Below, piece after piece: positions 16,740 to 29,912 of a stretch of DNA of 64,000 nucleotides. Positions within the stretch are counted from its first letter, which is position 1, and each line of letters opens with the position of its first letter. Made by a program: the position numbers and the translations under genes. Origin of the DNA: Winogradskyella arenosi (GTDB lineage: Bacteria; Bacteroidota; Bacteroidia; Flavobacteriales; Flavobacteriaceae); the NCBI RefSeq assembly GCF_003337305.1, contig NZ_QPJO01000001.1, forward strand, positions 1 through 64,000, given 5' to 3'. The notes under the pieces were generated by a model. The model had not been told where the DNA came from. It saw only the letters and a list, made by a program, of their open reading frames with translations, and made no database searches.

Positions 16740-17633
16740 TTATCTTAAAAATTTATCTGCAACATATATTATTTGCAACATTGTAATATAAAAAACGCTT
16801 GATAGCATAAGTTGTTTTGCCGTTTTGATGCTACGATCTTTAAACAATTTAAAAGCGTAGAAAAGCATGATTAAGCCTAATAAAAAGACTAAAACAGCCC
16901 CAACGATAGACAATTTTAAATCGCCTGAAAATCCGAATACGGGAATAATAGACGCTAAAATAGTCCAAACACTATACATAATTATTTGTACAGCGGTACC
17001 TTTATCGGGCTTTCCGGTAGGTAACATATGAAACCCTCCCTTTTTATAATCTTCATGTAAAAACCAACCTATAGACCAGAAGTGAGGAAATTGCCAAAAG
17101 AATTGAATGGCAAATAAGGTTCCTGGTTCTATACCAAATTCGTTACGAGCAGCTACCCAACCTAACATAAAAGGAATAGCTCCTGGCAAGGCCCCTACAA
17201 AAACGGACAATGACGTCTTAGTCTTTAAAGGCGTATAAACACTTGTGTATAAAAATATAGAAATGGCGCCATACATGGCGGTCTTAGGATTAATAATGTA
17301 TAAAGTAATTAGCCCTAAAATTGTAAAAGACACGGCAATAACAAAGGCCGTATTTACAGACATACGCCCGGAAGGAATTGGTCTATTTTTTGTCCGATCC
17401 ATGAGTGCATCTAAATCGCGCTCAATAATTTGATTATAGGCATTAGAGGCCCCAACCATAAAGTAGCCCCCTAAAGCTAATAAGATTAAGGTAACCAGAC
17501 TAATGGTCTCTGCTCCTAAAAAATAACCCGCTATAGAAGAAAACACCACACTTAAGGACAAGCCCATCTTGGTAATTTCCTTGAAATCTGTAACCACAGA
17601 ACCTGTTGATACCGAAGATTTTGTACTGCTCAA
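16740..17633 (-). CDS. cyoE: Protoheme IX farnesyltransferase (heme o synthase)
   Basis: Adds a farnesyl group to heme b to give heme o, the precursor of heme a for the oxidase. The 297 residues form a UbiA-type membrane prenyltransferase with the Asp-rich NQIIERDLDALMDRTKNRPI motif, the YTPLKTKTSLSVFVGALPGA loop and a second site DYKKGGFHMLP. The start is TTG at 17633: an in-frame stop lies 5 codons upstream with no ATG between, and the first internal ATG (residue 23) would cut into the conserved FKEITKMGLSLSVV region. It is first in the cox3/cox4 unit. Also called ctaB. Confidence 0.92.
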   Translation of the reverse strand: MSSTKSSVSTGSVVTDFKEITKMGLSLSVVFSSIAGYFLGAETISLVTLILLALGGYFMVGASNAYNQIIERDLDALMDRTKNRPIPSGRMSVNTAFVIAVSFTILGLITLYIINPKTAMYGAISIFLYTSVYTPLKTKTSLSVFVGALPGAIPFMLGWVAARNEFGIEPGTLFAIQFFWQFPHFWSIGWFLHEDYKKGGFHMLPTGKPDKGTAVQIIMYSVWTILASIIPVFGFSGDLKLSIVGAVLVFLLGLIMLFYAFKLFKDRSIKTAKQLMLSSVFYITMLQIIYVADKFLR

Positions 17634-17856: not shown

Positions 17857-19965
17857 TTAAAAATCATTATACCAGTTAAAGATATCTGTTCTTACCCCTA
17901 AACTGAACCATAAGGTATTAGACGATTGCGTTGATGCTGTTGTAACATCAGGGTTATAATCTCTATAAATAATATTGGTAAACAATTTAAGATTTGTTAC
18001 AGGGTTTAAAACATAACCAGCTTGAATCTCGGTCATAAAACTATTGGTGGTATTTCCTTGTCCAACCACAATACCCGTATCGGCATTTCGATCATTGTAA
18101 TCTCTATAAATGTTACCACCGTAAGAGAAGTTATCCTCATCGGTATTAAAATCTAAGCCGCGTTGTCCAATAATAAATTTAGCATCCCCAAACCAACGCT
18201 TATAATGATAGCGTCCTATTAAAACCAATTCTTTAAAATTAGCACCCCATAGGTGTGCCATTGGTTGGTTGAAATTCGCATAATTAAGCACTTGAGTATT
18301 GTGAGAATACACATACGGTCTTACGCGGTTATATTCTGCTTGTAACAAGAGGTTATCAACATTAAAGGCATTAAAATATTTGGCCCCTAACTGAAACCCG
18401 AATTTATTTTTCCAGCTTTTCTCTCCACCAGTTACATCACTTAAAGAAAATTCATCAAGAATAAACTGCCCATAAAGATTAACCTTATTATTCCATTTGT
18501 ACTTAGACGTTAAGCCGAGAATGGCATTTCCGGCGCCTTGCCCGGTCTGAAACTCTATCGCTCTAAAAAAGATAATCGGATTTAAATAATTTACATCAAA
18601 GCCACGCTCATTAGAATTGGTCCATATTACAGATTCAAAAAGACCAATATTTAGACGCTTAGAGACATTCCAACTCAAGTAATGATTAGCCATATATTTT
18701 GTTAAAAAGGCTTTATCAACAACAACTTCATCTCTCACATCTTTTAACCACATCCATGTGCTAGTGTACTTTATTTTCCAAAAGGTAGCATTCAATTTTA
18801 AGAAAGGATACGGACTAGACACATCACTTTGCAATAATGAGCGATACCCATCGCCGATAAAGTTTTTACCATGACCAAATTGGATGTTTAAAAAATCGGC
18901 TGGTGTATAAGATAAATAAGCCTCTGCTACAGGATAATCATAAGCATCATCTTTAAAACGTTTGGCAATACCACGACCTGGGATAATAGCTGGGTCTGGG
19001 CCAAAAGCTTTTAAACTTTCTGCGTACTGATTAAAATACTCCGCAAAACGACCTTGACTTTCATAAACTGACGCCGTTAAATTAAAACGTTTCCCTAAAC
19101 CGGCTTGTATATTTACCCCTCTTGTATTGTTCCATGTAGAATTAAAATCAGCCTCGGTGTCTTTACCTACTTGTAAATCTATTATAGGATCTACTGTAAA
19201 CCAATAATCTTCCCCTTGGACTTCCACTAAATGTTCATTAAACAGCTTACGTCCAAACCACGTATCTGTATCTTTTGCTAAATTTTCTTTTTCGGCTTTA
19301 ATATCATAATAGCGTGCCACATCACTATAGATAAATGGTTTCGCTGCGGTATGGCTATTGGTCCCAATGGCATTCATCTCATCATCAAATCTTGCATAAT
19401 AAGAATGCGTAAAAGGCACATTTAGTTGGCTATTGTATTCTAAGTTTTCATACGGTTTTAATCCTTGTTCTAACACATCGTACTCTTGAGAAAGCGTCGC
19501 ATTTAAACTGTCCGTTTCACTCAGGGCTTCAACGGTTTTTACAACGTTTGTTTTACGCACAGGAGCCGTTAGCGGAATGGCAATACTCACACTATACTGT
19601 ACAAATGTAGGCTTCCCATTATAGGTGGCCGGTTGCACTTTAGGCAAGGCTTCAAAAACGCGTTGGGTTTCCGCTTTTAATTCGTCATAGATCGCATCTA
19701 TATAAAGCACTTTAAAGGTTCCCTCCTTATCCACTTCAAACAACACCTTAACATCACCTTGATAAGACTCCTCCTCTACCACTTGAGGACTTTTAAAATT
19801 CTCAAATAAAAAGGTATTTAGGGTGAAATTAAAACAAGATTTGAGTTGCTCTACAGGAACAGAATCACAGACTTTAAATACGGGTGATTTTTCATAAAAC
19901 AGGGAATTTTGAGAATACCCTAAGGCGGCCGTTAAGCAAATAACAAATAGCACAATGCGCTTCAT
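17857..19965 (-). CDS. Gliding motility protein RemB-like, Wzi-type outer-membrane protein with N-terminal TonB-C-like domain
   Basis: The 702 residues open with a signal peptide (MKRIVLFVICLTAALGYSQ). Residues about 25-135 resemble the C-terminal TonB domain: FEVDKEGTFKVLYID, then ETQRVFEALPKVQP and GKPTFVQYSVSIAIPL, as in the two TonB proteins next door. The rest looks like an outer-membrane beta barrel of the capsule-assembly Wzi kind, ending in aromatic-rich strands (LWFSLGVRTDIFNWYNDF). I recall RemB of Flavobacterium johnsoniae gliding as having this size and type; that name is from memory and fairly, not fully, secure. Probably a single-gene unit. Confidence 0.65.
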   Translation of the reverse strand: MKRIVLFVICLTAALGYSQNSLFYEKSPVFKVCDSVPVEQLKSCFNFTLNTFLFENFKSPQVVEEESYQGDVKVLFEVDKEGTFKVLYIDAIYDELKAETQRVFEALPKVQPATYNGKPTFVQYSVSIAIPLTAPVRKTNVVKTVEALSETDSLNATLSQEYDVLEQGLKPYENLEYNSQLNVPFTHSYYARFDDEMNAIGTNSHTAAKPFIYSDVARYYDIKAEKENLAKDTDTWFGRKLFNEHLVEVQGEDYWFTVDPIIDLQVGKDTEADFNSTWNNTRGVNIQAGLGKRFNLTASVYESQGRFAEYFNQYAESLKAFGPDPAIIPGRGIAKRFKDDAYDYPVAEAYLSYTPADFLNIQFGHGKNFIGDGYRSLLQSDVSSPYPFLKLNATFWKIKYTSTWMWLKDVRDEVVVDKAFLTKYMANHYLSWNVSKRLNIGLFESVIWTNSNERGFDVNYLNPIIFFRAIEFQTGQGAGNAILGLTSKYKWNNKVNLYGQFILDEFSLSDVTGGEKSWKNKFGFQLGAKYFNAFNVDNLLLQAEYNRVRPYVYSHNTQVLNYANFNQPMAHLWGANFKELVLIGRYHYKRWFGDAKFIIGQRGLDFNTDEDNFSYGGNIYRDYNDRNADTGIVVGQGNTTNSFMTEIQAGYVLNPVTNLKLFTNIIYRDYNPDVTTASTQSSNTLWFSLGVRTDIFNWYNDF

Positions 19966-20091: not shown

Positions 20092-20886
20092 TTAATTTCT
20101 AATCTGATAGGTAATTGGCAAAGAGTATACCACACCTACGGGTTGATTACCTTGTATCCCCGGTTTCATTTTAGGGATTTTACGAATCACTCTATCGGCT
20201 TCTGTCTCTAACGCCGGATGAGGCCCTCTCGTTTTTATATCGGTTACATTACCGTTCTTATCAATAGTAAACTGGGTAAAAATGCGTTGTTTTCCGGACA
20301 TTCCGAAAGAGGCGCCAATGCTAGAATTGAACTTTCTATTAAGGAGTTTCGAAATTTTCTCAGACATACATTCTCTGCGGTCGTTGTTGGACGCATATTT
20401 TTCACAACCGGGATAAACGGGAACCCTTTCCACCGCAACAAAATCTACGACTAAAGGTTCTGAAGGTTTTTCAATTTCAGGAACATCAACAATATCTATT
20501 GGCGTTTCTACATCCGTTGTTTTAGCATCCGGATGATCCATAATCTGATCTACTATAGGGTGGTCATCTTCAACCACCTTAAGATCATCATTAAGATCGG
20601 GAGTCGAAGCCGGTTTCACTACCTGAGGTTTAATAGACTCAACTTGAAAAGGTGGCACCACATCTATGGTTATGGGTTCGGTGGTTGCCGTATCATGGTC
20701 AAGTCGCAATTTCTTTTCTTCAAATTGCATTTCAAATAAGGCATAGGTAGCCAACAAACAAAGGATAAGCCCTATTTGGAAATAAAGGCTCGAGTTTTTT
20801 CGTAAATTTGCATCATGCTTTTGTGATGGCTTTGCTTTAGTAGCGCTCTCACCAGCAACACTAAAGTCTTTGTTAGAATTTTTCAT
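20092..20886 (-). CDS. Energy transducer TonB (264 aa)
   Basis: TonB passes proton-motive energy from ExbB/ExbD to outer-membrane receptors. A cytoplasmic N-terminus is followed by one membrane helix (about 34-50), a Pro/Asp/Val-rich periplasmic linker and a TonB C-terminal domain (about 185-264: FTQFTIDKNGNVTDIKTRGP, RVIRKIPKMKPG, YSLPITYQI). VPVYPGCEKYAS before it is the YPGCE motif common in Bacteroidetes TonB proteins. It is a paralogue of the next gene (21004-21732) and has its own terminator. No exbB/exbD genes are in the window. Confidence 0.9.
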   Translation of the reverse strand: MKNSNKDFSVAGESATKAKPSQKHDANLRKNSSLYFQIGLILCLLATYALFEMQFEEKKLRLDHDTATTEPITIDVVPPFQVESIKPQVVKPASTPDLNDDLKVVEDDHPIVDQIMDHPDAKTTDVETPIDIVDVPEIEKPSEPLVVDFVAVERVPVYPGCEKYASNNDRRECMSEKISKLLNRKFNSSIGASFGMSGKQRIFTQFTIDKNGNVTDIKTRGPHPALETEADRVIRKIPKMKPGIQGNQPVGVVYSLPITYQIRN

Positions 20887-20945
20887 AATACTATTGGTTT
20901 AAATGTTAATATTATGATAAAATCACAATAAGCATACCAAAACGA

Positions 20946-20976
20946 AAATCCCGCTCAATTAATTTGAACGGGATTT
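20946..20976 (-). terminator. Terminator after the second TonB gene
   Basis: A 13-bp stem (20946-20958 with 20964-20976, one wobble on the minus strand) followed by a short T-run, 27 bases after the stop codon. Confidence 0.7.
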
Positions 20977-21003
20977 TTTATATAAGAAAAATTCTATGTT
21001 GTA

Positions 21004-21798: not shown

Positions 21799-22164
21799 TT
21801 AATTTAATTTATATGTATTAATCTGACTTGCAATAAACGTACCAAAAACCGCTCCGATGCTATTTGCTATAACATCTAGCAAATCATAGCTTCTATTAGG
21901 GTTTAGGAAGTACTGCAACAACTCTAACACAAATCCAAAGACAATAGCGCCCACAACAATCATTAGATACCAATATCTAATTTTTAACGTTTTAGTGTAA
22001 AGCCCCCAAAATAAGGCTAAACAGCAATAGGCTACGATGTGATAAATTTTATCATCTATCGATGAGCCCAAACTAGGCACTGAAGTCAGTGTGATTAAAC
22101 TTGCAATGACCAATGCCAATGTATAAGCCACCGACATTAGTAAAAGCCCTTTTTTAACCACCAA
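21799..22164 (-). CDS. VanZ family membrane protein
   Basis: The 121 residues have four predicted helices (about 7-27, 41-58, 65-83, 95-115) and the VanZ pattern [19 protein letters not shown] and [29 protein letters not shown]. VanZ proteins are named for low-level teicoplanin resistance, but the role of this short form is not known. The frame can start at TTG 22164, overlapping gcvH by 11 bases, or at ATG 22137, 16 bases after it. TTG keeps the full first helix. It is co-transcribed with gcvH. Confidence 0.85.
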
Positions 22165-22534
22165 TGTGTGCTTTATAGTCTTCTGCAGATAATAAATTAT
22201 CGATTTGAGAAGCGTCTGAAAATTTTAATTTAATCATCCAACCTTTTCCGTAAGGATCTGTATTTACATTTTCAGGCTCGTCTTCTAAGTTCTCATTGAA
22301 TTCTACGATCTCACCTGAGAGGGGTAACATTAAATCTGAAACGGTTTTTACAGCTTCAACGGTACCAAAGACTTCATCAACCTCTAGAGTTTCATCTAAA
22401 GTATCTACTTCTACATAGACAATGTCTCCAAGCTCGCCTTGGGCAAAATCTGTGATTCCAACGATAGCCAAATCGCCTTCAACTTTAACCCATTCGTGAT
22501 CTTTGGTGTATTTTAATTCTGCTGGTATATTCAT
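22154..22534 (-). CDS. gcvH: Glycine cleavage system H protein
   Basis: Lipoyl carrier that shuttles the aminomethyl group between the P, T and L proteins of glycine cleavage. The 126 residues have the lipoylation site Lys63 in [13 protein letters not shown], the opening [13 protein letters not shown] and the C-terminal [12 protein letters not shown]. Length and motifs are normal. The gene has its own promoter just after sprA and is followed by the VanZ gene; the other gcv genes are not in the window. Confidence 0.97.
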
Positions 22535-22598: not shown

Positions 22599-25500
22599 TT
22601 AATTTCCAAAATTATATCGCAATGTTATTCCTGATCGTACTGAGGTTTGCGGAAATGAGGTTGAAATGGCAAATTCTGAGAAGGTATAATCAAAATAAAA
22701 GATGGCCGATAAATTTTTACTGAAGGCATAATCAGCGTTATATTGAAGTCCCCAAATGGTTTGTCCTGCCGTGATCTGATTATTCTCTAAATCTAAATAT
22801 CGTATGATTGTTTTATTATCTCTTACCGACACATCAAGACTCATATTTAAATCACTTACAATAATTTGTTTTGGTCCTGCCAGCTCTGATCTAATTCTTA
22901 AATCTTTAATACGGTAACCTAAGCCTAGCGTAAACTCTTTACCTTGAATTTCGGTAAGTAAGTTATTATCGAAACTTAAAGACAGTAAACGATCGGTTTT
23001 TATTTCTGCCAAGACCTTGATAGAATTCTTCATCTCAAAATCTAATTTAATTAGAGGACTGAACTGTTCTTCTAAGTTAATATTACTGAATAAGGTTTCG
23101 TTCTTAAAGTTACCCGATTGGTCTAAAGCATCTGCATTACTAGGATCGGTAAAACCTAAATCTTGATCGTAATCTTGATAATCTAAATTGGTGATAAATT
23201 GATTCACGGTATAATTTGAGCGGTACCCATGCTGAACAGAAAAACGCTTAAAGGTTCTCTTAAACCAAGGCAATTTCATTAGTCCGGTGTACTTTAAATT
23301 CCAGTTTGGAATTGGCACATCTCTAAAGGCTCCTGTATTTACACTTTCCGGGTCCGACCCATGGTATGCCGCTAAGAATGCTGGTAATAGCACTTTTTGG
23401 CTATTTTTACCAAAACCTTCAGGATAACCTTCTGCATCCGTACCATAAGGCGTATCGCCATAAAATTCTTTAGCCAATCTGTTGGCTACAATATATCGGT
23501 TTGCTCTAAAATCATCAAAAGCATCCGATTGGTTTTCATTACTTTTTCCGAAGGCTGTTTTAATAATCGCTGTTGAAATACTAAAGTTTCCGTAAGAATT
23601 GGTAATTAAATCATTGTACTCATCACTTAATCCATCGGCGTTAGTATCTGTTGTATTGAAACTTTCCGTTGTGGTCCTTGCGTAAGTTCTGTTTCCGGTT
23701 AGGTCTATTTTTAAATCTGTTAACGGTTCTAGGTTAATAGAATAATCTAAACTTTGATTGGTCACTTCCGTGTACTGGTCATTAAAATCTTCATAGGTGG
23801 TTAACCAACCGTTTTCTGCAGCAATACTTCTAATGTCGCTCTGGCTACCAAAGGTATATCCTACCGTAGGTTTTAGCGTTCCAATAAATCCTGGAGTTGG
23901 TAAATACCCTGGTAAATAAGTTCCGTTATTTTCTGAATAGTTAAACTGCATACGTTTAACCATAGTAACAATATTCACAAAAGTATTATAGGCTTTTTCA
24001 CCCGCGCTTGGTTTGTCTTCCTCCTCTGATGCTGCCGGGTTAGGTGATGGCGTACGTCTGCTCGCTACTGTACTTCGTGTTCGTGCTCTCGATTTTTGTT
24101 TCCCCTTTTTTACGAGCCCCAAGGTTTTGTATAAGGTCTCCATATTAAGGGTCGTATTAATATTGTGCGTATTAGAGTTTTGGATAGAGTTTCCTAAATT
24201 CACCGTTTCATATTCTCCGGTATCTGGATTCTCTATTTCTAAATTGCTGTATAAATCTGATCCTTTTTCCCATTGAAAAGCTCCGCTATATGCATAAGTA
24301 CTTCTTAAGAAACTAAGAGCTGGAATTTTATATAATGGCAATTCATAATTCACCTGAATTTGCTGTGTTTGATAATTAGGATCTCCAAAATCAAAGAAGC
24401 CATCCCAAACATCAAGCTCCGGATCTTGAAGGCCGTCTAGTTGATTATCGATAAAATAGTTTCGAATAATATTGGTATTAGCCGCAGTAAAGTTAACACT
24501 TAAGGCATCCGATAAGTTATAGTTAATAGCGTACTGAAAATCGAAAGTATAATCTCTTCTGAATAATTCTTCAATACCAATATTGTCTCCTGTTAACTCG
24601 ACTTCTCTAAACTTTTGTTTGTTAAACTGTCGGTTATAATCTGAATTAATAGAGAAGCTTGAAGGCAGTAAGTTAAAATTAAAATCTTTTAAAATCTTCC
24701 AATGTTTACTGGTGAATAAAGAATCGTTCTTTTTAAACGGTTCAATTTTAACAGGCTCAAAAGCGTAAACATAATTCGCTCCCGCTCTTACGGTTTGATC
24801 TAAAGCGTTTTCAATTTCGAAGTCGCGATGTTCAACTTTATTATACGAATAATTTAAGGTTAAGTTTTCAACATCATAAAAGTGCTTTTCAGTATCTCCT
24901 GTTTTCTGTTTTCTAACCCCAATAAAGTTAATACTTTGACGTTTGGTATAATCCTCTGATTGCTCTCTAATCTCATCCGCCTCCTCACTTGTGGTCGCGG
25001 CATCTATTCTAGACTGCAAGGTAAGATCATTATAATACTGATCGTATTTTGGCGTAATAAGTTCTTCACTTTGCGCATAGTTAAATGGCAACTGAACGCC
25101 CCAAGTCTTAGGAAACAGTTGTCCTAATTGTACATTGGTAACAAAATCGTATTGCTGTGTGTCTTCTAAACTTCTTTCACTTGGACCTTGATCTATACTT
25201 CCAAAACCAGAAGTACTTCTACTACCCGTTGCATTAATGCTTGCAAAATCTGCAATTTTAGTATCCATACTTAGTATGGCCGCCCAACCACCTTCGTTAT
25301 CCATATCAGACATACGCAGCTCATTAAACCAAACCTCACTACAAGAGTTCATGCTCGTAGAACCTGAATTCTTAACCCCAACCATTAACACTCTAATATC
25401 CCCAAAATTCGGATTTCCTTTTATCGCAATACGTTGTTGTTTTTCAGTCCCAACAATATCATTATACGGTGTGTTTAATGACCCTAAAGGCGTTTCATCT

Positions 25501-28500
25501 AGTTCGCCATCAATAACGTTATAAATAGTCGCGTCCTCATTACTTAAGGTCCCTGCTGAAATTCCTAAAGATTTAATAGTCTGTAAATACTCTAAAGGCA
25601 TTTCAATTTCATTCTGCTCTGGCCAAGTTTGTTCTCTTAAACTCCCTTCGGCATCAGAGGTTGGCAATAAAGGAACTTCAATTTGATAGTAATTCTCGGT
25701 AAAGTCATTACCCATTCTAATAAACCCAACCATTTCACCTGGCTCTAACTGTTGACCATCTTGAGCTTCTGCATGAATAAACATACGCAGTTTTTTATAC
25801 TGGCGCATATCTAAATCGATGTTCTTATAAACTCCTTTTGAATCTGTTGGCGCCAAATCACAAGCTTGAAGCACTAAGGATTGTTCATTCTGATCTATAA
25901 TGGTGTTGTTGTTATTTAATTGCTCTTGCTCTACCCCTGGAGGTCTTAAATAGCCTGCATTATCTTGAACGCCTACCACACCAACATTGAATTCTACATT
26001 AGGACTATCGTTGGTTAAATCATTATCTAAATCTAGAGTATAACGTCTCCAATCACTACGTACCAAATCGAAAGTAGCAAAACGCAGTACGGTATTTTGT
26101 GTAAAATTAGATAAGTATAAACGTGCAAAACGAATAGATCTGATATCAGAAATACCACCAACAGCTTCACGAATATCACTATCATCAATAGGAATTCTAA
26201 ATTGGTACCATTTTACATCTCTTGTGTCTCCATTAGGTAAGGTTACCTGTTCTTCTTTAATATCGTTTACAATAGGATTTGTAAGACTCAAAGAAGCATT
26301 GGTAATATCTATTTCATACTCATAATAACTATTAATAGTATTCATGGTATTATCTCTATTGATATCTTCTACATCAGGTTGTGTGGTAGATCCACGATTT
26401 GTATCTGTAAAAGTCTCTGGCGAATTCCCTTCCGTGCCATTATATTTTCTATAACGCTCAAAGATATCTCCATCGGTATTTAAATAGTAGGTATAGTTAT
26501 CATTAGAAGGATCTTCACCAAATTCTGCACCAAATTCTGCAATTTCTTCTGTATCATTAAAGCCATCGAATCCAACATCTTGATTGGTACGCTCAGCCCC
26601 TGTGGTATCAAAAGTATAGATTAGTGATTGATTTTCAGGAACTACACTACCAAAATCCGTTCTCGTTAATATAGAGACATCACCATTTTCTGGCAAACCA
26701 TTTTCGTATTGTTTTTTTCCATCTTTTAAAATATCTTCAGAGATGTTTCCTAAGTTTAAAAACAACTTACCTCCAGGGTTAGAAGGATTATCTAAAAACG
26801 GATCTTGCACCCAAAACTCTATATATTCTACATTAGCTTGTTCAAAATCTGTAGAAGTAATTTGTCTTGTAATCCCCGCCCAACTATTTGAAGGGTTTAA
26901 ATTATTACCGTTAGCTGCACTAGGATCGAAATTATAAGGTCCTCGTTCTGCAGGGTAATAGGCTAAATCTAAAGTATTAATAACTGAGGTTTGCCCTTGT
27001 ACAATGTCTTGATCAAAAATCTCTTCAATAAAAATACGGCGCGTATATAAATCTGAAATATCATCATCCGTGATCCCACTTGGTCTTTGTGTACTGTAAA
27101 AAATAGGGTCAACGGTATACCAATTTAATAGCGCTCTACCATAGCCGTTTTCTATACCATTACCATCTACTCCGGGAATGTTATTTGGTAAATTTAAAGG
27201 TCTACTTGATAAACTCCATGACAACGGACTTAGTAAACTAATAGAACCTTGTGTGCCTTCAAAATCATCAATATAGGCGGTAGCTTCGTCATTAAAATCT
27301 GCACCACTAGAAGAGCCTGGTAATAAATACGCAAATTCCCCACGTAACGATAGACTTGACGGTACATCGGTGTCGATGTTGGGTAGTTTATTAACCATTC
27401 GGGTTAAAAAAGGCACCTCCGTTGAGTAGTTTCCATTAAACCCAAAAATGGTATTATTGATAGGTTCTGACGCATAATTTGCTTTTTGCGTAATCGGACT
27501 TTCGTTAAGATTAAGTAAGGTTGCCCCTAAAAGGAAATTCTCATTAAATTGATGCTCTACATTAACGCCCGTAAAACGTTTGGTCTGCTGTCCGAAAACC
27601 GCATTATTCTCTACAGAAATATTAATAGGCGTCTCTGAAGCGATAAGCGATTCATCTAAAATTTCTACCCGACCTAGTGTATAATTTACGGTATAATCTA
27701 CCCCTTCAATAAGCGTTCGACCTCCTGCGGTAACGGTTACCGACCCACGAGCCACGTTAAATGCTCCAATTGGAATCCCGCTATCACTACCACTACTGGT
27801 ATAACGCCCTTTAATTTGAAACTTATTTTTATCAGCCTCATCTAAAGCCGCTGTTTTGGTAGACTTATAGAGAATATCGTAAACGTACTTTTTCTGATTG
27901 ACATTAAACCCACTTTGGGTATCGCCTATATCTTCATAATCAGAAGCATTGTTACTGGAGTTATTATCATCATCTAAAACATCGAATAAATAACGCCCGA
28001 AAGGTTCCGTTTTTGTAAAAATAATCTTCCCATTTTGGGCGAGTATGGTTACCCCTTCCACAAAATCGAAAAAGCCATCCCCTTGGACTTGTTCATCACC
28101 GTTATAATTTAATTTATCGAGGTGAAAAAGGCGTATTAAAGGTGTTTCACTAATTTGTGAATCATCACTGGTATCATTAGGTGTGTTATTATCAAAGGTC
28201 GGAAACGGCACCTCTACCCCATTACTTGTTGCTGGAGTAATATAATTTACTGCAGACGCTTCGGTATAAAAAATGTTTAAGGTGAAATCTTCTTGATCCA
28301 ACTGATAAGCACCGGTATCATAGATGTTTTTCATCATTAAATCCCAAATCGGTTGCTCTACAGAAGTCACCGCACTCTTCAGCATTTTTAAGACTAAACT
28401 TTGATTGCTCACCACGGTATTTCCTGTAGTATCATCTACCGTTGTTGCATCTACACCATCATTAGCAAACTCTCCCACCTGATACACTTGACCACCAATG

Positions 28501-29912
28501 GTATATTGAAAGGCAACGGCTAAAACTTCGTCATTCAATAAACGTTGACTTAAAGAGATGTAACCTAACTTATCATTTAAAACGTAATCTTGTCCTTCAA
28601 TTAATTTGCTTGCCGATTCTAGTTTCCCATAATCAAAACCTTCTTGAATAGACACGTTAACCCCGCCTTGAATATTGGTGATATTTCTAACAGATTCTGT
28701 TAAAAGTGAGCCTGCCCCTCCGATGTTGGTAGGGTCAAAATCATTGTTTGCGTTATTTGGTTTAGCCCCAAGGCTATTAATAAATCCACTTGGTAAGGGA
28801 TCTAATCCTATATTTTCTGGGGATGACTCTCCTAAATCTTGAAACGCCACAATATTCCTTACATTATCGGTTTCATTGGTTCTGTTAGTCACCCAAACTT
28901 CAGCCCTTGTAATTTGCAAACCTTGATTATCAATAAACGGGTATTGCAATAAGGCCTTATCGTAAGTTTCTCTAAAATACTGCGCTAAAAAGAAGTGTCT
29001 ATTTTCATCGTAATCTTGGGCATAGAACTCAAATTCTTCAACTGTTCCCCCACCTTCAGCTACAACTGAGGTTGATTCGGATTGTTGTTCAGAAAACACT
29101 GCTGTGACTCTAGTTTTTCCAAATTGTAATTCGGTCTTAACCCCAAATAAACTTTGCGCTCCGGTAATAAGCGAACTGTTTAAAGGCATACTCACGTTAC
29201 CCACTTCAATCTTACGGATGATATCGTCTTCAGTTGGTGTATATTCTAATTTTACGACCTGTTGAAAATCGAAAGTAGCCTCGGTATCATAATTAGCAGT
29301 CACTTGAAGTTTTGTTCCTACTTTACCCAATAAGTTTAGGCTAATTCTTTGGTCAAAATCGAAGGTAAAATTCGACCGATTTTGAGGCGAAAGTGAAGGA
29401 TTATCTTGTTTTGAATACAGAATCCCTAAATCGACTTCTACAGAACCTTGAGGAATAATATTAATGGTATTCCCACCAAATATAGATTCAAAAAGTCCTG
29501 AGTTGACATAAAACTCAGGTAGTAAATTCTTTTGATCTTCTTCTGCGCCTTCCTTTTGGCCTGCCGCAGCATCGGCCATTTTCTTATAATAATTTTTTAG
29601 TTTTTCTTCTAAAACTAATTTTCTAAATTCCTCTGGTGTAAGAATTAAGGGATAATTGATATTAAAATTTCCAATCTTTTCTGAATAGACATAGCGGTCT
29701 AATACCGGATCATAAGTATACTTAGAAACGATACTACTAGGATTGGGCATGTTTAATTTACCAAAGGCAAATGTAGTTTTCGTAGAATCTTGTTCGCTTT
29801 CCGTTTCGGTTTCTTGGGCGAGGGCAAGATTTCCAAAGAGCATCATAAATGCTAATAGGTAATAACATTTAGAAGCGACGCTTTGCTTATGGTTAGGTGT
29901 ATTCAATTGCAT
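22599..29912 (-). CDS. sprA: Cell surface protein SprA, type IX secretion translocon and gliding protein
   Basis: At 2437 residues this is the largest gene here and has the size and character of SprA. SprA forms the very large outer-membrane barrel through which type IX secretion substrates leave, and is needed for gliding in flavobacteria. The signal peptide ends near MLFGNLALAQ. Many amphipathic strands and aromatic residues run throughout, ending in a typical outer-membrane final strand (TSVRSGITLRYNFGN). The ATG overlaps the ruvA stop by one base (TAATG), so it is translated from the ruvA transcript. The secreted protein at 1-2077 could be a substrate. Confidence 0.95.
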   Translation of the reverse strand: MQLNTPNHKQSVASKCYYLLAFMMLFGNLALAQETETESEQDSTKTTFAFGKLNMPNPSSIVSKYTYDPVLDRYVYSEKIGNFNINYPLILTPEEFRKLVLEEKLKNYYKKMADAAAGQKEGAEEDQKNLLPEFYVNSGLFESIFGGNTINIIPQGSVEVDLGILYSKQDNPSLSPQNRSNFTFDFDQRISLNLLGKVGTKLQVTANYDTEATFDFQQVVKLEYTPTEDDIIRKIEVGNVSMPLNSSLITGAQSLFGVKTELQFGKTRVTAVFSEQQSESTSVVAEGGGTVEEFEFYAQDYDENRHFFLAQYFRETYDKALLQYPFIDNQGLQITRAEVWVTNRTNETDNVRNIVAFQDLGESSPENIGLDPLPSGFINSLGAKPNNANNDFDPTNIGGAGSLLTESVRNITNIQGGVNVSIQEGFDYGKLESASKLIEGQDYVLNDKLGYISLSQRLLNDEVLAVAFQYTIGGQVYQVGEFANDGVDATTVDDTTGNTVVSNQSLVLKMLKSAVTSVEQPIWDLMMKNIYDTGAYQLDQEDFTLNIFYTEASAVNYITPATSNGVEVPFPTFDNNTPNDTSDDSQISETPLIRLFHLDKLNYNGDEQVQGDGFFDFVEGVTILAQNGKIIFTKTEPFGRYLFDVLDDDNNSSNNASDYEDIGDTQSGFNVNQKKYVYDILYKSTKTAALDEADKNKFQIKGRYTSSGSDSGIPIGAFNVARGSVTVTAGGRTLIEGVDYTVNYTLGRVEILDESLIASETPINISVENNAVFGQQTKRFTGVNVEHQFNENFLLGATLLNLNESPITQKANYASEPINNTIFGFNGNYSTEVPFLTRMVNKLPNIDTDVPSSLSLRGEFAYLLPGSSSGADFNDEATAYIDDFEGTQGSISLLSPLSWSLSSRPLNLPNNIPGVDGNGIENGYGRALLNWYTVDPIFYSTQRPSGITDDDISDLYTRRIFIEEIFDQDIVQGQTSVINTLDLAYYPAERGPYNFDPSAANGNNLNPSNSWAGITRQITSTDFEQANVEYIEFWVQDPFLDNPSNPGGKLFLNLGNISEDILKDGKKQYENGLPENGDVSILTRTDFGSVVPENQSLIYTFDTTGAERTNQDVGFDGFNDTEEIAEFGAEFGEDPSNDNYTYYLNTDGDIFERYRKYNGTEGNSPETFTDTNRGSTTQPDVEDINRDNTMNTINSYYEYEIDITNASLSLTNPIVNDIKEEQVTLPNGDTRDVKWYQFRIPIDDSDIREAVGGISDIRSIRFARLYLSNFTQNTVLRFATFDLVRSDWRRYTLDLDNDLTNDSPNVEFNVGVVGVQDNAGYLRPPGVEQEQLNNNNTIIDQNEQSLVLQACDLAPTDSKGVYKNIDLDMRQYKKLRMFIHAEAQDGQQLEPGEMVGFIRMGNDFTENYYQIEVPLLPTSDAEGSLREQTWPEQNEIEMPLEYLQTIKSLGISAGTLSNEDATIYNVIDGELDETPLGSLNTPYNDIVGTEKQQRIAIKGNPNFGDIRVLMVGVKNSGSTSMNSCSEVWFNELRMSDMDNEGGWAAILSMDTKIADFASINATGSRSTSGFGSIDQGPSERSLEDTQQYDFVTNVQLGQLFPKTWGVQLPFNYAQSEELITPKYDQYYNDLTLQSRIDAATTSEEADEIREQSEDYTKRQSINFIGVRKQKTGDTEKHFYDVENLTLNYSYNKVEHRDFEIENALDQTVRAGANYVYAFEPVKIEPFKKNDSLFTSKHWKILKDFNFNLLPSSFSINSDYNRQFNKQKFREVELTGDNIGIEELFRRDYTFDFQYAINYNLSDALSVNFTAANTNIIRNYFIDNQLDGLQDPELDVWDGFFDFGDPNYQTQQIQVNYELPLYKIPALSFLRSTYAYSGAFQWEKGSDLYSNLEIENPDTGEYETVNLGNSIQNSNTHNINTTLNMETLYKTLGLVKKGKQKSRARTRSTVASRRTPSPNPAASEEEDKPSAGEKAYNTFVNIVTMVKRMQFNYSENNGTYLPGYLPTPGFIGTLKPTVGYTFGSQSDIRSIAAENGWLTTYEDFNDQYTEVTNQSLDYSINLEPLTDLKIDLTGNRTYARTTTESFNTTDTNADGLSDEYNDLITNSYGNFSISTAIIKTAFGKSNENQSDAFDDFRANRYIVANRLAKEFYGDTPYGTDAEGYPEGFGKNSQKVLLPAFLAAYHGSDPESVNTGAFRDVPIPNWNLKYTGLMKLPWFKRTFKRFSVQHGYRSNYTVNQFITNLDYQDYDQDLGFTDPSNADALDQSGNFKNETLFSNINLEEQFSPLIKLDFEMKNSIKVLAEIKTDRLLSLSFDNNLLTEIQGKEFTLGLGYRIKDLRIRSELAGPKQIIVSDLNMSLDVSVRDNKTIIRYLDLENNQITAGQTIWGLQYNADYAFSKNLSAIFYFDYTFSEFAISTSFPQTSVRSGITLRYNFGN

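Follow-up and report, generated by a model that had tools for sequence, protein, structure and literature searches.

A TonB C-terminal domain ahead of a predicted Wzi-fold outer-membrane barrel in RemB of Winogradskyella arenosi and other Flavobacteriaceae

Introduction

TonB tips grip their partners by strand pairing and can also dimerise, and the tip of Escherichia coli TonB has been reported to bind peptidoglycan. Among the outer-membrane barrels that bear on the present subject, Wzi, the lectin of the E. coli group 1 capsule (structure 2ynk), is an 18-stranded barrel with helices at the N-terminus, and these helices and the C-terminus face the periplasm, as given in the accessible part of its description (PMC3791409). 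The EpsX-type barrels of the D1D2-OPX/barrel polysaccharide exporters also have 18 strands, belong to Wzx/Wzy-type pathways and have a periplasmic partner; in the available part of PMC9601211 they are described without a helical bundle, with AlgE as the closest structural relative of EpsX. The word TonB is absent from that paper.

RemB itself is listed in the gliding literature: PMC4572689 gives it as adhesin-like and as a protein secreted through the Por system, PMC6801697 as adhesion-like (accessible parts of both). In Flavobacterium johnsoniae remB is Fjoh_1657 and sprA is Fjoh_1653 (PMC4572689, in part). F. rivuli and F. akiainvivens are reported to be non-gliding and to be without remA, remB and sprB (PMC4572689 and PMC6801697, in part), and in F. 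spartansii the genes for RemB and SprA come after a genomic island (PMC5714932, in part). RemZ, which the paper on the type 9 translocon treats, is a secreted substrate and distinct from RemB (PMC10994853, in part). A TonB_C domain combined with a Wzi-type barrel is unmentioned in the available parts of papers on barrel exporters (PMC9601211), force transducers (PMC12204202) and the type 9 translocon (PMC10994853); the main text of the last names neither RemB nor TonB, the word RemB is absent from PMC7440613, and no paper was found for the locus tags Fjoh_1656 and Fjoh_1657. The literature searched, most of it by listing and with the subscription journals on gliding mostly outside its scope, gave no description of such a protein.

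Results and Discussion

The remB gene and its neighbourhood

The window, by which we mean the whole stretch of 64,000 nucleotides of W. arenosi DNA that was analysed, carries remB downstream of two tonB genes and of a conserved block (Table 1). Full-length relatives of remB are present in Flavobacteriaceae, and those with 80-84% identity to the RemB of the window (L096, L099, L102 and L107, among the 59 relatives of alignment A3) are all from Winogradskyella. The order sprA-gcvH-vanZ-deoC-remB was observed in many of the named Flavobacterium loci; the remB of F. johnsoniae, four locus numbers from sprA, fits this order and is likened to ours by position alone. Terminator-like sites, one of which is given in Table 1, numbered 5 in the region against 2.8 +/- 1.9 in shuffled sequences.

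Table 1. Position of remB, the parts of its product and the surrounding genes within the window
Feature	Position	Strand	Remarks
remB	17857..19965	-	702 aa, ATG start; signal peptide, TonB_C domain, linker, helical region and predicted barrel; from ORF and model
Putative signal peptide, residues 1-19	19909..19965	-	Called by eye; helix 2-17 in model
TonB C-terminal-like domain, residues 26-134	19564..19890	-	Cys pair C33, C44; from Pfam, fold and profile
Variable linker, residues 135-178	19432..19563	-	pLDDT <50 at 138-153; pairwise identity 0.21
Helical region ahead of barrel, residues 179-252	19210..19431	-	Within the Wzi match
Predicted 18-stranded outer-membrane barrel, residues 253-702	17860..19209	-	Strands counted by eye in model
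TonB_b, 264 aa, immediate upstream neighbour of remB	20092..20886	-	Pfam TonB_C
TonB_a, 242 aa	21004..21732	-	Pfam TonB_C
Terminator-like stem of 14 pairs, separating TonB_a from TonB_b	20945..20977	-	Pattern match only
VanZ-like gene, conserved block	21799..22164	-	ORF, Pfam
gcvH, conserved block	22154..22534	-	ORF, Pfam
Gene taken to be sprA, conserved block	22599..29912	-	Named from size and context
Presumed cyoE-like gene, downstream, opening a cytochrome oxidase block	16740..17633	-	From ORF

Identification of a TonB C-terminal domain in RemB

Residues 26-134 of RemB are a TonB C-terminal domain, as confirmed by sequence family, profile and fold. The Pfam family TonB_C (PF03544) matches residues 60-128 with an E value of 7e-6 and a score of 26.8 bits, above the curated cut-off of 24.6; it also matches both of the TonBs encoded upstream, and at E<=1 it was found in 7 of the 8 family members of alignment A1. 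The proposal, made from the letters of the DNA, of a TonB_C-like domain at the N-terminus of a RemB/Wzi-type protein was to stand or fall with a profile-profile search, and that comparison, of 30 RemB N-terminal domains with 26 TonBs from such loci, gave a probability of 99.6%, an E value of 6e-24 and 22% identity over 106 columns. The motif pattern that the proposal had described as common to RemB and the two upstream TonBs is present in the alignment, with the last motif looser than had been stated: the first reads FEVDKEG in RemB, FTIDKNG in TonB_b and FKVDKSG in TonB_a, the second ETQRVFEALPKVQP, EADRVIRKIPKMKP and EAKRVIGDLPKMKP, and the third GKPTFVQYSVSI, GNQPVGVVYSLPI and GKPVVMPFSIPI, in the same order of proteins.

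When modelled alone, the domain gave a pLDDT of 92.3 and a pTM of 0.82, with the order helix-strand-strand-helix-strand. Rows 1-14 of the Foldseek search with this model are all TonB tips, two of them being FusB (called a TonB homologue); the best row is FoxA-bound TonB (E 8e-4), the sole row below 0.001, and the remaining rows range from 0.005 to 0.11. In the VIA comparison FoxA-bound TonB (6i97_D) aligned over 87 residues at 2.3 A with a Z score of 8.8, and ranks 1-22 are occupied by domains of TonB, FusB or TolA, three of them at Z >=8. The domain of about residues 26-134 includes an N-terminal helix and the pair C33/C44, both in common with the TonBs of these loci, and all 98 aligned domains retain the two cysteines (the window, 20 unnamed loci and 77 of the 80 named loci; L090, L128 and L138 were left out). 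Several general searches gave less: RemB was absent at E<=1 from the matches of the NCBIfam TonB model, under which TonB_a and TonB_b were listed only below the cut-off, the sequence profile of the domain found no TonB among PDB chains (the top match, PUF60 at E 0.008, was taken as spurious), and a PHROGs search gave no match.

Unlike the domain of a TonB, that of RemB is N-terminal, on an outer-membrane protein and after a signal peptide. The N-terminal membrane helix and the periplasm-spanning linker of TonB are absent ahead of it in the window and in 20 aligned family members, as judged by eye, and RemB is therefore not a TonB. Y88 and Y115 are kept in at least 90% of RemB domains, where the TonBs of the window have K or V, and Q, respectively, which suggests a partner of its own for RemB. 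The TonB stretches RGPHP and QRG/QGN are altered in RemB in the alignment, and the TonB-type grip may therefore be lost.

The predicted barrel of RemB and its likeness to Wzi

The model of full-length RemB is of fair quality (pLDDT 78.5) and consists of the signal peptide, the domain, a poorly ordered linker, helices (six between residues 154 and 242) and, by count, 18 long strands, the last of which reach residue 693 of 702. With this model VIA placed Wzi (2ynk) at rank 1 of 997 aligned chains, with a Z score of 22.6 over 372 residues at 3.4 A and a span of 179-694, the next chain being at Z 18.5; the Foldseek search had the porin OccD2 at rank 1 and Wzi at rank 5 (E 1.6e-9). The predicted RemB thus has the Wzi-type architecture of an 18-stranded barrel with an N-terminal helical bundle, the latter setting it apart from EpsX as described in the available part of PMC9601211; AlgE, the relative of EpsX, is also among the structure matches of RemB. 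The likeness is one of predicted fold: identity to Wzi is 14%, and the TonB domain is absent from Wzi. Pfam Wzi (PF14052) was not found at E<=1 in the RemB of the window, among 17 relatives in A1 it was found in one (E 0.047, below the cut-off), and the barrel alignment used as a sequence profile matched none of the PDB chains. On the strength of the models, RemB is predicted to be an outer-membrane barrel of the Wzi fold with a helical region ahead of it.

Since the N-terminal helices and the C-terminus of Wzi face the periplasm (PMC3791409, in part), the TonB_C domain of RemB should lie on the periplasmic side. The sequence-only reading had placed it there, and the orientation of Wzi makes this the expected side. 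The lists of gliding proteins imply otherwise, namely that the type 9 system exports RemB to the surface, where it would be an adhesin; this would fit its description as adhesin-like and Por-secreted or as adhesion-like (PMC4572689 and PMC6801697, in part). We consider this very improbable, because no family of type 9 sorting domains was found at E<=1 in Pfam or NCBIfam, the predicted barrel strands extend to residue 693 of 702, and the best 50 of the 997 VIA chains are all membrane barrels. The view of RemB may thus shift from an adhesin-like secreted protein to a Wzi-type outer-membrane protein with a periplasmic TonB tip.

The fold of Wzi, together with the presence of barrel-only relatives at polysaccharide clusters, suggests that the barrel handles polysaccharide. 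Such clusters were seen in 6 of the 7 neighbourhoods viewed of barrel-only relatives, and also at the loci of family f8; in L079 and L080 the Pfam scans support a polysaccharide cluster beside the barrel-only remB, with genes for a flippase, two sulfotransferases, Wzy_C, epimerase-type enzymes and glycosyltransferases. No polysaccharide cluster was seen around remB in the window, nor around the barrel-only remB of L059 (Ichthyobacteriaceae) and L287.

Distribution of the domain

With one genome taken per genus, the barrel was found in 96 of 149 Flavobacteriaceae genomes, and 95 of these 96 carry the TonB_C domain; at E<=1e-30 the domain was detected in 91 of the 149, and G204, G226, G741 and G742 have a more divergent domain (72-78 bits with a custom profile). 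The exception is G750 (L287, 9086-10711), a Flavobacteriaceae genome whose RemB is barrel-only and stands among unrelated genes; either the domain was lost there or the genome branched off early. A few of the 96 barrel genomes (G209, G691, G741 and G748) have frames that are short and split. The named loci, which are the best 80 of at least 576 confirmed relatives, have a full-length frame with the domain in 77 cases; L138 has the domain but its frame is short, that of L128 begins only within the domain, and L090, a metagenome-assembled genome of Ichthyobacteriaceae, is barrel-only.

Across the order (196 genomes), full-length matches to RemB were found only in Flavobacteriaceae, in 24 of 30 genomes, the remaining 6 giving no barrel match, and in the other families of the order the barrel matches start at RemB residue 175 or later. 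In the alignment the domain segment is present in the window and 20 proteins of the family and in none of 25 proteins from other families, in which the signal peptide runs straight into the barrel. A scan of 25 further relatives outside the family also gave none with the domain; the 26 scanned were the six best plus 20 mostly long frames rather than a random draw, one of them (L271) being the same gene as the already aligned L074. Most relatives from outside the family were judged by the start of the match or by frame length (444-658 aa among the matches listed). When a barrel-only relative was used as query across the class, a match was found in 183 of 198 genomes. The near-universal presence of the domain on this barrel across one family indicates that it is used.

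A search of 296 genomes of the phylum with the RemB domain separated 24 RemB proteins, at 134-170 bits, from other TonB_C matches, at no more than 82 bits among the matches listed. The gap is not absolute, for in the wider family sample the RemB domains score from 165 down to 113 bits, with four weaker still.

A proposed docking role for the domain

Mean pairwise identity among 59 proteins is 0.48 for the domain, 0.21 for the linker, 0.56 for the helical region and 0.66 for the barrel. The value for the domain beside that for the linker shows the domain to be under constraint, and the pattern over all four parts points to a tethered module that is in use. We favour, though tentatively, the reading that the domain is a passive periplasmic docking module of a polysaccharide-handling barrel. 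At or near the base of Flavobacteriaceae, RemB would have gained a TonB_C domain between its signal peptide and its barrel. Flexibly tethered in the periplasm, the domain would use the strand-pairing grip of a TonB tip to hold a peptide belonging to some partner in the outer membrane or the periplasm, possibly a component of polysaccharide export, of gliding or of TonB-dependent systems, and this grip would place the polysaccharide-handling barrel beside the partner. Transmission of energy from the inner membrane by RemB is not expected, because the membrane helix and the spanning linker are absent.

The same tethered position would also suit a domain that binds peptidoglycan and so anchors the barrel to the cell wall; its fold is that of TonB tips, and its place on a periplasmic tether ahead of the barrel fits such an anchor, to which we give a small but real chance. 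The lower conservation of the domain (0.48) than of the barrel (0.66) would agree with a third reading, in which it is packed under the barrel as an assembly or stability module and has no partner. This is unlikely in view of the invariant cysteine pair and other nearly invariant residues, and also because barrels of other families manage without the domain.

A bolder form of the docking reading is a reversal of roles, in which a TonB tip has left the motor of the inner membrane for a polysaccharide-handling barrel of the outer membrane. The box-like peptides that it then grips would belong to components of gliding, of type 9 secretion or of TonB-dependent systems. We regard this as a long shot; if true, surface polysaccharide would be tied to a moving machine. 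More generally, the architecture of RemB may connect gliding with how surface polysaccharide is handled. The changed view alters which experiments make sense, and the domain, at about 110 residues, lends itself to deletion or to use as bait.

Neighbouring tonB genes

From the position of remB beside two tonB genes, the earlier reading had suggested that these proteins share partners or have exchanged domains, and had asked whether homologues of RemB carry the domain and lie next to tonB in other gliding species. Within Flavobacteriaceae the domain was found almost throughout, in the 95 of 96 genomes given above, and the place next to tonB in part: among the 70 named loci that cover the junction, 50 have tonB between gcvH and remB (two copies in 45, one in 4 and three in 1), while in 20, including L138 with its short frame, no tonB was recognised there and the RemB domain is still present. 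Nine further named loci end short of the junction. Nor are the adjacent TonBs the closest in sequence. Against the RemB N-terminal profile, two unlinked TonBs of the same genome score 67.0 and 66.8 bits, each with 30% identity to the domain of the window, and the adjacent TonB_a and TonB_b score 55.1 bits (27%) and 48.2 bits (21%). Shared partners or exchange thus do not follow from adjacency, given the loci without tonB, the closer unlinked TonBs and the single RemB clade described below.

In a related family, f8, the order sprA-gcvH-vanZ-tonB-deoC-[polysaccharide genes]-remB was seen in six genomes, the remB there being without the domain, and cyoE is next after remB in the five stretches that are long enough (tonB was recognised by domain match in three of these loci, and vanZ of L083 was read as fused to gcvH). 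Because the f8 genomes share this gene order with a domain-less remB, the proximity of tonB and remB looks inherited. In L085, of family f11, sprA-gcvH-tonB lies near deoC with other genes in between, and the stretch of L086 has deoC only. Most of the f8-type cluster genes are missing between tonB and remB in the Flavobacteriaceae loci viewed, deoC or an acyltransferase being sometimes left there and two more genes being retained in L161. Six Flavobacteriaceae genomes without remB still have the block with tonB: three read gcvH-vanZ-tonB-cyoE, a fourth has one reverse-strand gene in addition before cyoE, and in two the block goes elsewhere after tonB. The 20 loci without tonB and these blocks without remB together indicate that neither gene needs the other nearby.

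These loci also bear on the possibility that the domain pairs with a true TonB tip, so that the ExbBD motor pulls RemB. One to three tonB genes in 50 of the 70 loci, and the ability of TonB tips to dimerise, would favour it, but the domain is present in the 20 loci without tonB and the six remB-less genomes of the family keep tonB in the block. A distant TonB could still serve; we hold such pairing to be quite unlikely and retain the docking reading.

In L079, L081, L082, L083 and L084, all of family f8, the genes between deoC and remB form a Wzx/Wzy-type polysaccharide cluster with sulfotransferase genes, situated inside the sprA block.

Origin of the domain

Every tree groups the RemB domains in a single clade with a long stem, with SH-aLRT support of 84 in a quick tree and values of 100/100 and 100/99 in two careful trees. 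The trees were thinned by fixed limits on duplicates, long branches and groups, the TonBs of the window being only in the third tree (100/99), and they rest on 108 columns, little more being obtainable. A single clade does not point to repeated exchange. That domains were exchanged with the adjacent tonB genes is unsupported, with the clade, the profile scores and the identities all against it. In AU tests, one old fusion from a TonB_b-like gene (p 0.257) and a grouping of RemB with secreted solo TonB_C proteins (p 0.399) were not rejected. One clade of the RemB domains with all locus TonBs of the family was rejected (p 0.0005), a rejection of little weight, since the locus TonBs do not themselves make up a single clade (6 changes needed). 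As far as the trees indicate, a single gain of the domain, followed by its retention, seems likely, the donor possibly being either a TonB_b-like gene or a secreted solo TonB_C protein, neither of which is rejected. The solo proteins, such as L194-L197, resemble the front of RemB in having an apparent signal peptide and one TonB_C domain, and differ in having no barrel.

TonB_C domains were met in other settings as well. L194-L197, L226 and L239, of the family and the order, encode small proteins in which a start resembling a signal peptide is followed by a single TonB_C domain or by two, with the TonB linker absent. Among the matches listed, many frames of 450-1234 aa with TonB_C matches score below the RemB proteins, and TonB_C lies inside longer proteins, some with two copies, in the genome of the window (C1:830683, a frame of 616 aa) and in L193, L215, L227 and L228. 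In L274 (G126) the barrel makes up the C-terminal half of a frame of 846 aa, the start of which we take, by eye, to be glycerol-3-phosphate dehydrogenase-like, and which is perhaps fused or misassembled.
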